Shown here piece by piece: positions 37,245-42,291 of a stretch of DNA of 64,000 nt. Below the pieces are notes generated by a model. It did no database searches, was not told the DNA's origin, and saw nothing but the letters and a program-made list of their open reading frames with translations. The stretch spans positions 1 through 64,000 of the forward strand of contig JAJZDM010000007.1 in assembly GCA_021806005.1 (NCBI GenBank). The letters run 5' to 3'. Both the position numbers and the translations under genes were made by a program. Source of the stretch: Acidobacteriota bacterium. GTDB lineage: Bacteria; Acidobacteriota; Terriglobia; Terriglobales; Acidobacteriaceae. Positions within the stretch are counted from its first letter, which is position 1. Each line of letters opens with the position of its first letter.

Positions 37245-38291
37245 ATGCGTGACCGGCGCAGGATGGTCGAGATGTGGCGTCGGGGCGAATCCGTAGCCCT
37301 GATCACGTTAGTGCGGTTGGAGGGATCCAGTTACCGCAAGGTGGGCGCTCGCCTGCTCGTGGGAGCCGATGGGCAGTACGCCGGGTCGATCTCCGGCGGG
37401 TGTCTGGAGGCCGAGGTAGTACACAAGGCTCCCTGGATGGTGCGCTCCGGAGCGGTGATCGTGAGGTACTCCACCCTCTTCGACGATACCGCGGAGATCC
37501 CCTACGGCCTGGGCTGTGGCGGAACAGTCGATCTGCTCCTCGAGCCGGCAGGCACACCCGAGTTTCAATCCTTGATGGAGGCGCTGGAGGCTTCGCTGGA
37601 CGGGATCGGCAGCCGTGTGGTCACATGGCTGCCAGAGGCTGGACAGCGGTTGCAGCGGGTGATCAATCCACCAGCGACAGCGGAAGTTCCAGGCGTCTTC
37701 GCGGAGACCATCCTTCCTCCGCAGCGGCTCATCGTCTTTGGAGCAGGGGACGATGCCCGGTCCATGGTGGAGGCGGCCGCTCTCCTGGGTTGGCGGGTGG
37801 TCGTAGTGGATGGAAGAGCGCAGTTGGCGAAAGCCCAGCGATTCCCGCAAGCACGTCTGGTGCTGGTGGCCAGAGAGTTTGCAGAGTTGGAGGGTTTGGG
37901 CATCGGGGCCCAGGACGCTCTGGTAATCATGACGCACAGTTATGAGCAGGACAAAGCCTGGCTTGCTGGAGCCTTGAAATGCAGGCCACGATACCTTGGC
38001 CTGCTCGGGGCGCGGCACAGAAGCGCACTGCTGGTCAGCGAAACGGCGGCAGCTTTGGAGTGGAGCGTAGACCAGGTCTGCGAGCAGTTGTTTGCCCCGG
38101 TCGGTCTGGACCTGGGGGGCGACGGTGCCGATGCGATTGCCTTGGCGGCGATCGCCGAAATGCAGGGATTCCTGAATGGAAGGATTGGCGTCTCGCGCCG
38201 GATGACCGCGGCGATGGTAGCCGCGCAGATGAAGCAAGGCGCTCAAAAGGGAAGCAGTCAGGGGAGTCTGCAGCCCCGGTGCGCGCTGTGA
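37245..38291 (+). CDS. XdhC/CoxI-family molybdoenzyme maturation factor
   Basis: 348 residues. The N-terminal XdhC/CoxI domain (about 1-75: LVRLEGSSYRKVGARLLVG, SISGGCLEAEV, and LGCGGTVDLLLEP) is followed by a Rossmann-type C-terminal domain (LIVFGAGDDARSMVEAAALLGWRVVVVDGR near 165, then MTHSYEQDKAWL, YLGLLGARHR). Such proteins hold the molybdenum cofactor and assist its sulfuration for xanthine dehydrogenase-type enzymes. The following gene starts within its stop codon (GTGA). No molybdenum hydroxylase genes are in the window. Confidence 0.9.
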   Translation: MRDRRRMVEMWRRGESVALITLVRLEGSSYRKVGARLLVGADGQYAGSISGGCLEAEVVHKAPWMVRSGAVIVRYSTLFDDTAEIPYGLGCGGTVDLLLEPAGTPEFQSLMEALEASLDGIGSRVVTWLPEAGQRLQRVINPPATAEVPGVFAETILPPQRLIVFGAGDDARSMVEAAALLGWRVVVVDGRAQLAKAQRFPQARLVLVAREFAELEGLGIGAQDALVIMTHSYEQDKAWLAGALKCRPRYLGLLGARHRSALLVSETAAALEWSVDQVCEQLFAPVGLDLGGDGADAIALAAIAEMQGFLNGRIGVSRRMTAAMVAAQMKQGAQKGSSQGSLQPRCAL

Positions 38292-38845
38292 GCGTTGCCG
38301 CCGTGCTGCTGGCTGCCGGAGCTTCACAGCGGCTGGGGTGGCCCAAGCAGACAGCGATTCTGGGAGCAGAGACGCTGCTGCAACGAGCCGTGCGCGTGGC
38401 GCGGCAGGCCGGACTCTCACCCATCCTGGTGGTAGTACGCGAAAGCTGGATGGCGCAGGGTCTGGGCGACTGCGAAGTCGTGCTCAATCCGTTCGCCAAA
38501 GAAGGTGTCGCGTCGTCAATCCGCTGCGGCGTGGAGCGGGCTCGAACCCTTGGTGCGGTGGGTGCAGCGCTGATGAGCTGCGACCAGGTGGCGCTGCGGC
38601 CGGAGCACCTGCGTCAGATCTGTGCGCAGACGGATCGGGTCACTGGCTCGGGATATGCGGGGAAGATTGGGATTCCGGCTTACTTTCCGGCGTCCTGTTT
38701 TCCATCTCTGCTGGAGTTGCAGGGCGACGTAGGCGCCCGCGATCTGTTGCGAGGGGCTGCATCCGTAGCGGATGAGGCTCTGGGGCTGGATGTGGACACG
38801 GAGGCGGACCTGGTGCGAGCCCGCTCTATCCAAGCCACGGTCTAG
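38288..38845 (+). CDS. MocA/MobA-like nucleotidyltransferase (molybdenum cofactor cytidylyltransferase)
   Basis: 185 residues, start at GTG 38288 overlapping the XdhC stop (GTGA), giving MSVAAVLLAAGASQRLG immediately, the standard N-terminus of the family. Motifs: LLAAGASQRLGWPKQ (nucleotide binding), SSIRCGVERA, LMSCDQV (metal Asp), PAYFPASCFPSLLELQGDVGARDLL. It probably attaches CMP to molybdopterin for the enzyme served by the XdhC partner. An in-frame GTG at 38279 is an alternative start. MobA-type GMP transfer cannot be excluded. Confidence 0.88.
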   Translation: MSVAAVLLAAGASQRLGWPKQTAILGAETLLQRAVRVARQAGLSPILVVVRESWMAQGLGDCEVVLNPFAKEGVASSIRCGVERARTLGAVGAALMSCDQVALRPEHLRQICAQTDRVTGSGYAGKIGIPAYFPASCFPSLLELQGDVGARDLLRGAASVADEALGLDVDTEADLVRARSIQATV

Positions 38846-39033: not shown

Positions 39034-39846
39034 ATGAGTCGTATCCCTTTCGTCAAAGCCCACGCCTGTGGCAATGATTTTCTGATCCTCGACGAGGAGC
39101 ACGCCCACGGCCGGCATGCCGTTCTGGCGCACAAGCTGTGCAGCCGCAATACGGGCATCGGCGCCGACGGTATCGAGTTCCTGGAGCGCCGGCCCAACGG
39201 CGAGTTCTTTCTCCGCCTCTTCAACGCAGACGGCTCTGAGGCTGAGCTCAGCGGCAACGGCACTCGCTGCGTGGCTGCCTGGCTGGCGGCCAGCGAAGGC
39301 CGGCAGGAGACGGCACTGGGCACGCACGGCGGCCTGCGCACCTGCCGGCTCATCCGCCGGGACGGGGTGGACTACTGGATTGAGAGCAACATGGGAATCC
39401 CACAGGTGACGCCAAAGACGATCGAGATCCCGGGCGTAGAAGGTCCCATCCACGGCGCAGTGGTCAACGTCGGCAACCCCCACTTCGTCCTCTTTCCGGA
39501 GAGTGAAGCATTCTCCTCCCACAACCTGTCCTGGCAGGCTTTGGGTGCCAAGATCGCCGTCGATGCCGCCTTTCCCAAGGGAACCAACGTAGAGTTTGTC
39601 CACCCTCTGGCTCCCAGCCACATCGCCTTCCGCATCTATGAGCGTGGCTGTGGCCCCACTACCTCCAGCGGAACCGGGACCTGTGCAGCCGCGGCGGCGT
39701 CCATGGCCCTGCGCGGCTCCGCGCGCCGGCTCTCCGCAACTACCCAGGGAGGTACGCAGCAGGTCGCCTGGCCCACGGACTCCAGTGAGATGCTGCTGAC
39801 CGGTCCGGCAGAGATCATCTGCACCGGCGAGGTTGACTTTGCCTGA
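39034..39846 (+). CDS. Diaminopimelate epimerase homologue lacking both catalytic cysteines
   Basis: 270 residues; ATG 39034 follows GGAGG. The DapF fold is evident: KAHACGNDFLIL, NTGIGADGIEFLE, FNADGSEAELSGNGTRC (about 62-78), VNVGNPHFVLF, ERGCGPTTSSGTGTC (about 203-217). In true DapF the catalytic pair are the Cys of xCGNG and the Cys of ACGTG; here both are Ser (Ser73, Ser212), while flanking glycines and the Asn/Arg residues are kept. So it may be a variant epimerase, a different isomerase or an inactive paralogue. It is coupled to LD-carboxypeptidase and mpl genes, which points to cell-wall peptide metabolism; dapF remains the closest name. Confidence 0.85.
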   Translation: MSRIPFVKAHACGNDFLILDEEHAHGRHAVLAHKLCSRNTGIGADGIEFLERRPNGEFFLRLFNADGSEAELSGNGTRCVAAWLAASEGRQETALGTHGGLRTCRLIRRDGVDYWIESNMGIPQVTPKTIEIPGVEGPIHGAVVNVGNPHFVLFPESEAFSSHNLSWQALGAKIAVDAAFPKGTNVEFVHPLAPSHIAFRIYERGCGPTTSSGTGTCAAAAASMALRGSARRLSATTQGGTQQVAWPTDSSEMLLTGPAEIICTGEVDFA

Positions 39847-40810
39847 GTTCGCACCCCTGCGTCCCAGCATCAGGGAAGGAAGCCGCATCGCCATCGTCTC
39901 TCCCGCCTCCGCTGCACAACCGGAGCTGGTGGAGCAGGGGCGGGCTGCTCTGGAGGCCTTCGGCTATCACCCTGTCATCATGCCGCATGCCCTGGACCGC
40001 GGACCACTCTACCTGGCCGGCTCAGCGGCGGACCGCGCGGCGGATCTCCATGCCGCGTTCTCCGATCCGGAGATCGACGGCATCCTCTGTACCCGCGGCG
40101 GATGGGGCTCCGCCGAGATTCTTCCCCTCCTGGATCCCGATCGGATCCGTGCCAACCCCAAGGTCTTCGCCGGCTACAGCGACCACACCTCACTCCACAT
40201 CTATCTCTGGAACCACTGCCGCCTCACCACCTTCTATGCCCCCATGGTCGCGGCCGACTGGTCCAACCCCAGCGGGGTGGATGAACGCACCTGGCGCGCC
40301 GCCCTGCATGCCGAATCGCTCTGGTCCGTGGGGCCGGCCGATGGAATCCGGTTGCTGCGCACCGCTGGCTCGGCCAACTCCAGCGTGCCGGAATCCAGCG
40401 TCGTTGAAGGCCGCATCCTCGGCGGGTGTCTCTCCCTGCTTGCCGAATCCCTGGGCACGCCCTACGCGCTGAACCTCACCGAACCAACCATCCTCTTTCT
40501 GGAAGACATCAACACCCGGCCGTATCAGTGGGACCGCATGATTAGCCATCTGCGTCTGGCCGGCCAGCTTCGCCACGTCCGCGGCATCCTCCTGGGTGAC
40601 CCGTCGTCCAGCATCCAGTCCTCTCCGTCGCCTGATCTTGCTCTCCTGGAGGCCGCCTGCCTCCACGCCCTTGATCAGTCTCCCGGAGAGTTTCAAGGTC
40701 CCATTGCCATCGGTCTCCGCTGCGGCCACGTGGACCGCCAGAACCGCTCCATCCCCTTGGGTACATGGGTAAGATGGAAGTACGACACGATAAGCGAGAT
40801 GGCAGCGTGA
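39839..40810 (+). CDS. LD-carboxypeptidase (muramoyltetrapeptide carboxypeptidase, S66 family)
   Basis: 323 residues from TTG 39839, 6 bases after GAGG and overlapping the end of the dapF-like gene by 8 bases. It cleaves the terminal D-Ala from murein tetrapeptides in the cytoplasm. The S66 pattern is complete: IAIVSPAS, CTRGGWGSAEILPLLD, FAGYSDHTSLHIYL with the nucleophile Ser (about 114), LEDINTRPYQWDRM with the catalytic Glu, and RCGHVDRQNRSIPLG with the catalytic His. It ends within the GTG of the next gene. Peptidoglycan recycling is the natural role. Confidence 0.93.
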   Translation: MPEFAPLRPSIREGSRIAIVSPASAAQPELVEQGRAALEAFGYHPVIMPHALDRGPLYLAGSAADRAADLHAAFSDPEIDGILCTRGGWGSAEILPLLDPDRIRANPKVFAGYSDHTSLHIYLWNHCRLTTFYAPMVAADWSNPSGVDERTWRAALHAESLWSVGPADGIRLLRTAGSANSSVPESSVVEGRILGGCLSLLAESLGTPYALNLTEPTILFLEDINTRPYQWDRMISHLRLAGQLRHVRGILLGDPSSSIQSSPSPDLALLEAACLHALDQSPGEFQGPIAIGLRCGHVDRQNRSIPLGTWVRWKYDTISEMAA

Positions 40811-42291
40811 AGAAGAAGACAGAAGGGTCCATGGGACCGGACAGCCAGGGGTCCCACGGGCCGGCCACAGGCAAGCACATCCACCTGATCGGCATCTGCG
40901 GAACGGCCATGGCTTCGCTGGCCGGGATGCTCCGCGCTCAGGGTCACCGCGTCACCGGTTCAGACACAGCCGCCTACCCGCCCATGAGCGACCAGCTCCG
41001 CGCCATGGGTATACCCATCCTGGAACCGTACAGCGCTGCGAACCTCACCCCGGCTCCAGATCTCGTCGTGGTGGGCAACGCCATCTCCCGCGGCAACGCC
41101 GAACTTGAGTACCTTCTGGATCGGCCGGCCAACGACCGCATCCCCTTCACCTCAATGGCGGCGCTGATCCACGACGAGTTCCTCGCCCGGCGTGAGCGAC
41201 TCATCGTATGCGGAACCCACGGCAAGACGACCACCACCAGCATGCTTGCCTGGATCTACGAGGTCGCCAGCGCTTCCGACCCCGTCTTCATCCCATCATT
41301 TCTGATCGGTGGCGTGGCAGAGAACTTCGGTGCCAGCTTCCGCGTGCACGCTGACTCCCGCTCCTTCATCCTGGAGGGCGACGAGTACGATACCGCCTTC
41401 TTCGACAAAGGGCCCAAGTTTTTGCACTACTTTCCCGACGCAGCCATCCTCACCCACGTGGAGTTCGACCACGCCGATATCTACGTCGATCTGGGCGCGG
41501 TGAAGACCGCCTTCAAGCGCATGGTCAACCTGATCCCTCGCCGCGGCCGATTGATCGCCTTTGACGCCAACCCCAACGTCACCGAATGCTGCGCCAGGGC
41601 CTTCTGCAACATCGAGCGCTACGGCTTCCAGTCCGCATCGTACTGGCAGGCCACGAACCTGCAGCAGTTGGGCGCTACGACCAGTTGGACCCTCCTCCGC
41701 GGTGGAGAAGAGTTTGCCCGCCTTACGCTACCCATGGCTGGGGAACACAACGCCCTGAACGCTACCGCAGCGGCGGCTCTGGCCGCCGGGCAGGGCGTGC
41801 CGGCTGAGGCCATCACCCAGGCCCTGGCCACCTTCCGCTCGGTCAAGCGTCGCCTGGAGGTCCGTGCCGAGGTCGGCGGCATCACCATCATCGACGACTT
41901 TGCCCACCACCCCACGGCGATCCGGGAGACGCTGCGCGCCCTCCGCTCGGCCTACCCAGGCCGCCGTCTGTGGGCCGTCCTCGAACCCCGCTCCAACACC
42001 CTCCGTCGCAACGTCTTTGAGCGCGAGATGGTAGACGCTCTGGCCCTGGCCGATCAGGTGGTTTTCTCGGCCGTCTTCAAGAGCGAAGCCATTCCGGCTC
42101 CGGAGCGGTTGGAGCCGGAGAACGTGGTCGCAGCGCTCGGCGCACGAAACGTCCCCGCCGTGCTATGCGCCAATGCGGATGAGATCGTCGCTGCAATCAC
42201 TCCAAGGCTGGCTCCCAACGATGTGGTAGCTATCCTCTCCAACGGCGGCTTTGGCAATATCTATGAGAAGCTCCCCGCAGCCCTGCGGTAA
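40807..42291 (+). CDS. mpl: UDP-MurNAc:L-Ala-gamma-D-Glu-meso-DAP ligase
   Basis: 494 residues from GTG 40807, which overlaps the previous stop (GTGA). It joins recycled murein tripeptide to UDP-MurNAc in the cytoplasm. Motifs: HLIGICGTAMASLAGML (Mpl/MurC N-domain), AMLRAQGHRVTGSD, ATP-binding VCGTHGKTTTTSMLAW, LEGDEYDTAFFDKGPKF (typical of Mpl rather than MurC), HVEFDHADIY, GEHNALNA and the C-domain DDFAHHPTAIRETL. A non-conserved polar leader of about 28 residues precedes the domain. Together with the LD-carboxypeptidase it forms a recycling operon. Confidence 0.92.
   Translation: MKKKTEGSMGPDSQGSHGPATGKHIHLIGICGTAMASLAGMLRAQGHRVTGSDTAAYPPMSDQLRAMGIPILEPYSAANLTPAPDLVVVGNAISRGNAELEYLLDRPANDRIPFTSMAALIHDEFLARRERLIVCGTHGKTTTTSMLAWIYEVASASDPVFIPSFLIGGVAENFGASFRVHADSRSFILEGDEYDTAFFDKGPKFLHYFPDAAILTHVEFDHADIYVDLGAVKTAFKRMVNLIPRRGRLIAFDANPNVTECCARAFCNIERYGFQSASYWQATNLQQLGATTSWTLLRGGEEFARLTLPMAGEHNALNATAAAALAAGQGVPAEAITQALATFRSVKRRLEVRAEVGGITIIDDFAHHPTAIRETLRALRSAYPGRRLWAVLEPRSNTLRRNVFEREMVDALALADQVVFSAVFKSEAIPAPERLEPENVVAALGARNVPAVLCANADEIVAAITPRLAPNDVVAILSNGGFGNIYEKLPAALR

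Follow-up and report, generated by a model that had tools for sequence, protein, structure and literature searches.

The dapF gene of the DNA stretch analyzed here, a 64,000-nucleotide window (positions 1 to 64,000 of contig JAJZDM010000007.1, assembly GCA_021806005.1, of an Acidobacteriota bacterium from the Acidobacteriaceae), encodes a protein with serine at both positions occupied by the catalytic cysteines of diaminopimelate (DAP) epimerase, DapF. This protein is probably the organism's DAP epimerase in a naturally occurring Ser/Ser form (residues are given as site 1/site 2). Ser/Ser DapF proteins are real and widespread, and they agree with the DapF family in the sequence and structure features tested, save the cysteine pair. 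The analysis itself shows the predicted fold, residues, phylogenetic spread, conservation, and pathway context of the window protein, and these suggest that it would be active on DAP, with the two serines as acid/base residues. With slightly less assurance, we favor the view that paired-cysteine chemistry is dispensable and that several lineages, including much of the Acidobacteriota and the order Solirubrobacterales, make meso-DAP with serine hydroxyls only, as a result of repeated change, probably via Cys/Ser. No publication on a serine DapF was found in the open-access literature searched.

A DapF homolog with serine at both catalytic positions

39034..39846, + strand: dapF homolog, Ser/Ser form, 270 amino acids (TIGR00652, PF01678, AlphaFold2 model)
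39250..39252, + strand: Ser73 codon; aligns with catalytic Cys 1 of solved DapF proteins, immediately N-terminal to a helix in the model
39667..39669, + strand: Ser212 codon; aligns with catalytic Cys 2 of the same proteins, immediately N-terminal to a helix in the model

The translation of 39034-39846 (+ strand, 270 amino acids) contains no internal stop, and its two motifs read SEAELSGNGTRC and ERGCGPTTSSGTGTCAA. The protein scores 200.2 bits against the DapF model TIGR00652 (cut-off 114.65; residues 5-267 of 270), and a Pfam scan returned PF01678 alone and no PhzF family. When aligned with three solved DapF proteins (3ejx, 9mro, and 5h2g, from Arabidopsis, Anabaena, and Corynebacterium), Ser73 and Ser212 fall on both catalytic cysteines, and the cysteine pair characteristic of DapF is therefore missing. 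The AlphaFold2 model (25-row alignment; predicted local distance difference test 95.8; predicted template modeling score 0.92) places Ser73 immediately before helix 74-88 and Ser212 immediately before helix 213-227, as is the case for the DapF cysteines, and thus retains the DapF fold with reactive residues at two helix starts. Its nearest solved structures are DAP epimerases, with 9mro at the top (Z 35.3, root-mean-square deviation 1.8 Å, 255 residues), a result that was the same with Foldseek.

The initial annotation of this stretch, made from the sequence alone, had described a DapF homolog with serine at both catalytic cysteine positions; the alignment to solved DapF proteins, TIGR00652, and the model confirm this description. 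It had also considered that an alignment might bring Cys78 and Cys217 into the catalytic positions, which is not what we found: the nearby Cys79 and Cys217 lie inside helices 74-88 and 213-227, outside these positions. As stand-in catalytic residues they were rejected for this location and for their variability, Cys79 being present in 49 and Cys217 in 14 of 62 Cys/Cys DapF rows, and in 117 and 104, respectively, of 162 Ser/Ser rows, i.e., neither is fixed. A sequencing error, pseudogene, or misalignment, for which no supporting point was found, can be dismissed as a practically negligible explanation, given that more than 200 places in separate genomes carry open frames with serine at both sites.

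Distribution and copy number in the Acidobacteriota

The genome to which the window belongs (4.16 Mb, 97.4% complete) yielded no second DapF in protein and family searches, and the normal second dapF that the initial annotation had proposed to look for is thus missing from these results. A match on contig 48 (29% identity, E 0.057), considered as a hidden DapF, was rejected since it gave no family-model match at E 10. The class-level search returned a DapF match in 35 of 41 genomes, at 36 places, and all 30 loci read among the 36 listed places are Ser/Ser. Across the phylum, 290 of 297 genomes gave a match; by our own count, at least 27 genomes had more than one among the matches listed, some of these being pieces of one gene. 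The 146 usable phylum rows, a non-random set of loci chosen among the matches listed to cover families and score ranges, comprise 98 Ser/Ser, 45 Cys/Cys, 3 Cys/Ser, and no Ser/Cys.

Two further DapF types were observed in the phylum. Loci L158-L165 (family f25, possibly Holophagaceae; L164 in f16) represent a divergent Cys/Cys type that scores 81-128 hidden Markov model bits, carries Asp or Glu in place of Asn64, has mostly the motifs FCSNG (site 1) and CCGTG (site 2), and may have a different substrate; genome G098 holds both a Ser/Ser form (L098) and this divergent Cys/Cys DapF (L162). The phylum's other DapF type (GVP/ERGVExET) includes the Ser/Ser row L134 (genome G041) and the Cys/Ser rows L101, L135, and L143, which indicates that the change happened there too.

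Ser/Ser DapF in other phyla and its phylogeny

Genome contigs were scanned with a DNA pattern that requires serine, encoded by TCN, at site 2; the stretches are selected for this codon and are therefore unable to reveal Ser/Cys. The scan yielded at least 119 stretches, and among the matches listed 96 were Ser/Ser, 15 Cys/Ser, and 1 Cys/Cys, with site 1 unreadable or odd in 7; all 119 listed stretches are in this tally, and 80 of them entered the tree sets. Ser/Ser rows belong to Acidobacteriota, Actinomycetota, Bacillota (Lachnospiraceae and others), Chloroflexota, Nitrospirota, Myxococcota, Zixibacteria, and others, and Cys/Ser rows to Rubrobacter, Acidimicrobiia, Poribacteria, Pseudomonadota, and others. 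This breadth over many lineages, beyond one odd protein, was unforeseen by the initial annotation. A single DapF was found in 32 of the 48 scan genomes searched in whole (20 Ser/Ser, 12 Cys/Ser); the other 16, from Lachnospiraceae and other Clostridia, Nitrospirota, and Myxococcota, have more than one.

A tree of 66 chosen rows was built without the two catalytic sites, and a FastTree was computed for 222 rows; the direction of change is not polarized by these trees. On the 66-row tree, 7 changes are required to explain the Ser/Ser label, of which starred branches force at least 5, and 14 to explain the three states; the FastTree requires 8 (with 4 or more forced) and 15, respectively. The window's row clusters with named Acidobacteriaceae in the FastTree. 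The 66-row tree contains a mainly acidobacterial Ser/Ser clade of 22 rows (support 100/99) with Zixibacteria rows within it (one of them Cys/Ser), a 12-row Ser/Ser clade (98/91) comprising Solirubrobacterales, Nitrospirota, Clostridia, and the acidobacterial families f25 and f66, and a four-row Ser/Ser clade of Myxococcota and Chloroflexota (100/100), with lone Ser/Ser rows elsewhere (L134, L205, and L236). As judged from these trees, the Ser/Ser state has been gained or lost repeatedly, in several separate changes.

Conservation of the serines and of the DAP-binding residues

When 81 Ser/Ser loci are taken together, each of the two sites draws on the full set of six serine codons (site 1: AGY 30, TCN 51; site 2: AGY 25, TCN 56), and the AGY and TCN boxes are mixed within 15 of the 81 rows, a usage which argues that serine itself has been retained and not a chance codon. 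In the 241-row set, from which rows shorter than 225 amino acids and identical rows had been removed beforehand, Asn64 and Asn148 are each found in 161 of the 162 Ser/Ser rows, and Asn185, Glu203, and Arg204 in all 162. The window protein has all five residues, whose equivalents in Anabaena DapF grip DAP by its distal amino acid (PMC12039745). The same set is intact in 19/19 Ser/Ser rows from Lachnospiraceae and other Clostridia, Nitrospirota, Myxococcota, and the acidobacterial family f25.

Compared with 15 chosen Cys/Cys rows, no acid/base residue other than the two serines was exclusive to the Ser/Ser rows. Two candidates for a Ser/Ser-specific replacement were rejected as enriched but not exclusive: Glu71, as a base, occurs in 141/162 Ser/Ser rows vs. 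7/15 of the chosen Cys/Cys rows, and Cys36 in 154/162 vs. 2/15 of the chosen rows and 46/62 of all Cys/Cys rows.

Lysine pathway, cell wall chemistry, and gene neighborhood

The window's own genome encodes LysA (484 bits), an enzyme that requires meso-DAP, and a MurE carrying the DNPR motif, which we take to be the mark of the meso-DAP-adding MurE. Of 21 genomes, including this one, 20 have LysA over cut-off, and the genome missing it is 74% complete. Ddh gave no match in the own genome, was over cut-off in none of 21 genomes including it (7 weak matches), and did not reach the cut-off in any of 20 Ser/Ser genomes from other groups with a single DapF, three of its matches there being weak; in a search of 45 genomes it exceeded the cut-off in 4, namely G338, G339, and G343 (Lachnospiraceae and relatives) and G375 (a Cys/Ser member of Fermentithermobacillaceae). 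No plant-type DapL was found over cut-off, with DapD-type routes outside the search; an aminotransferase of the own genome (C110:6364-7758, L116) is over the alanine transaminase cut-off, and its scores against DapL models are high although they stay under the cut-off. As to lysine in Chloracidobacterium, the literature search gave nothing, and the available part of PMC5900883 is silent on lysine.

Solirubrobacterales, the order of Patulibacter americanus (G354), possess DapF in 80 of 81 genomes, 79 of these with a single copy, and the 81 places comprise 79 Ser/Ser, one with site 2 masked, and one Cys/Cys. The Cys/Cys case is the second DapF (L395) of genome G417, located on an 8-kb contig, and may represent contamination. 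Ser/Cys was seen neither in these 81 places (one site 2 masked) nor in the 146 phylum rows, and neither set was chosen for serine at site 2. In genome G447, very probably Conexibacter woesei of the same order, the sole DapF match (L356) is Ser/Ser, and Ddh gave no match in Patulibacter (G354) or in the Conexibacter metagenome-assembled genome (G364). The presence of meso-DAP in peptidoglycan has been stated for all Solirubrobacterales members (PMC3035278) and reported also for a Solirubrobacter strain (PMC10722151).

These data bear on the explanation that the walls contain LL-DAP, that the epimerase is unneeded for the wall, and that the gene is drifting. It would suit the fact that no meso-DAP measurement for Terriglobia was found in the open-access literature searched; however, the occurrence of LysA in 20 of 21 genomes, the meso-DAP reported for Solirubrobacterales with Ser/Ser DapF (PMC3035278), and the absence of signs of drift (30/30 class-level loci are Ser/Ser, with six-codon usage) make it very improbable.

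The initial annotation had described dapF as coupled to LD-carboxypeptidase and Mpl, and both assignments were borne out by family models:

39833..40810, + strand: LD-carboxypeptidase (S66), open reading frame overlapping the dapF end, start codon putative; PF02016 and PF17676 over cut-off
40765..42291, + strand: Mpl, UDP-MurNAc:L-Ala-gamma-D-Glu-meso-DAP ligase, start codon putative; TIGR01081 410.5 bits, cut-off 388.7

PRK11253 gave 108 bits for the S66 reading frame, below its cut-off of 378. The S66 gene adjoins dapF in 23/23 same-family genomes read and is followed by mpl in 21 of them; it was found beside dapF at none of the 10 other-family loci of the class-level search, within a flank of about 1.5 kb. 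Both S66 LD-carboxypeptidase and Mpl act on meso-DAP peptides, the latter in murein peptide recycling. Among the 45 largest clusters listed, no recurring DAP genes were noticed by eye beside Ser/Ser genes.

Other neighbors were seen at individual loci. Two Lachnospiraceae loci have the Ser/Ser gene near a putative homoserine dehydrogenase gene (by eye), one of them also near an aspartokinase gene, and the other loci do not. Upstream in the window, 37245-38845 contains an XdhC-like gene (by eye) and a gene for a MobA-like nucleoside triphosphate transferase (PF12804); of the loci searched, the own locus (L001/L010), L015, L017, and L018 are the only ones with such genes next to dapF.

Proposed mechanism

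Site 1 of DapF is the side of the LL-DAP alpha-hydrogen. In the window enzyme, LL-DAP would be bound as in DapF, its distal amino acid gripped by Asn64, Asn148, Asn185, Glu203, and Arg204, and its reacting alpha-carboxylate by backbone NH groups where helices 74-88 and 213-227 begin. Ser73, facing the LL-DAP side, and Ser212, on the opposite side, would transfer the alpha-proton as alkoxides or via bound water, with help from both helix dipoles and from the substrate amine in its protonated form. In the biosynthetic direction, Ser73 (site 1) would serve as the base and Ser212 (site 2) as the acid, and the Ser/Ser enzyme might be slow and work mainly from LL- to meso-DAP.

This assignment draws on Anabaena DapF, in which the target of L,L-aziDAP is Cys75 (site 1) and that of D,L-aziDAP is Cys224 (site 2), and on the thiol pKa values of 6.5 and 8.5 quoted for Haemophilus influenzae DapF (PMC12039745), from which we infer that the base of the biosynthetic direction should sit at site 1. 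The occurrence of Cys/Ser, with Ser/Cys unseen, fits an earlier loss of the cysteine at the less demanding acid position, site 2. A slow enzyme would have company in the canonical Mycobacterium tuberculosis DapF, with a kcat/Km of 883 per M per s (quoted from a cited review), and natural hydroxyl residues have precedents in an active Ser-Cys 4-hydroxyproline epimerase of the same fold (PMC4113996) and in a Cys/Thr aspartate/glutamate racemase, which works in one direction only (PMC8142540).

Several observations weigh against a Ser/Ser DAP epimerase. A Cys/Cys DapF accompanies the Ser/Ser protein in 15 of the 16 two-copy genomes (in the sixteenth, G374, the other copy has cysteine at site 2), which implies that the Ser/Ser protein is unneeded there for meso-DAP and may act otherwise; these genomes are the main evidence against one function shared by all Ser/Ser proteins. 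In addition, lysA (identified by eye) adjoins a Cys/Cys dapF at loci L033 and L038, Gly76 (SGNG) replaces the Asn that, three residues on, positions the catalytic serine in the proline racemase superfamily, and Cys-to-Ser mutants of PddB are nearly dead (PMC8225329) and those of HisR greatly slowed (PMC11602996). Neither activity data for a Ser/Ser DapF nor, as mentioned above, a Terriglobia wall measurement was found.

Because Lachnospiraceae, Nitrospirota, and Myxococcota pair Ser/Ser with a normal Cys/Cys DapF, it is possible, although rather unlikely, that Ser/Ser proteins bind DAP or a similar bis-amino acid and catalyze another reaction, such as elimination or an easier isomerization, with meso-DAP made by an unrecognized enzyme where Ser/Ser is the sole form. 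Such a role would also agree with the proline racemase superfamily, in which a Ser/Thr pair belongs to a dehydratase and not an epimerase (PMC4113996). However, it requires a second, unrecognized epimerase in several phyla, the Ser/Ser rows share the same DAP-binding set, including the 19/19 described above, and the succession of dapF, S66, and mpl in the window's family suggests a connection with meso-DAP peptides.

The mutants described above would also suit a catalytically dead DapF kept for binding or regulation, with meso-DAP made otherwise, and a complex of E. coli RppH with DapF has been solved (6d13, from its structure title). For a dead enzyme, however, serine maintained at both sites through six codons, together with an intact active site, would be superfluous; moreover, the Ser/Ser form is fixed widely and is the only DapF found in the own genome, which has LysA and MurE and lacks a Ddh over cut-off, which makes this explanation improbable. 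Thus, among the three outcomes considered by the initial annotation, the serine variant is best supported, another isomerase survives as a possible DAP-like reaction, and an inactive protein is unlikely.

Significance and comparison with known systems

DapF is the standard example of how a weak base, a thiolate, abstracts a proton whose pKa is about 29. If serine pairs do the work of DapF naturally, as we propose, the accepted reason for the cysteine requirement falls short, and orthologs of all three forms (Cys/Cys, Cys/Ser, and Ser/Ser) offer a natural series for testing it. Aziridine and other thiol-directed DapF inhibitors should spare Ser/Ser enzymes. For wide taxa, a "Cys proton donor" carried over by annotation would be an error. 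Speculatively, a Ser/Ser enzyme might gain immunity to disulfide inactivation; an oxidized Corynebacterium glutamicum DapF has been solved (5h2g, from its structure title).

The closest known system is DapF itself (TIGR00652, PF01678; 9mro, 3ejx, 5m47), with which the window protein shares the fold, length, DAP-binding Asn/Glu/Arg set, and acid/base positions at helix starts, but differs in having Ser/Ser, as known here from sequence and model, instead of Cys/Cys. PhzF and CntK/HisR have the same fold as the window model (Z about 23-27), but they show only 13-19% identity and use other substrates; at 13-15% identity, PhzF structures have no clear sequence relation to the window protein. PhzF works with an acid residue, and the CntK/HisR histidine racemases have a cysteine pair, unlike the Ser/Ser window protein. 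The Ser-Cys 4-hydroxyproline 2-epimerase and the Ser-Thr trans-3-hydroxyproline dehydratase resemble the window protein in their DapF-like fold and natural catalytic serine at site 1, but they act on other substrates, have a single catalytic serine, and possess the helper Asn that is Gly76 in the window protein (PMC4113996).
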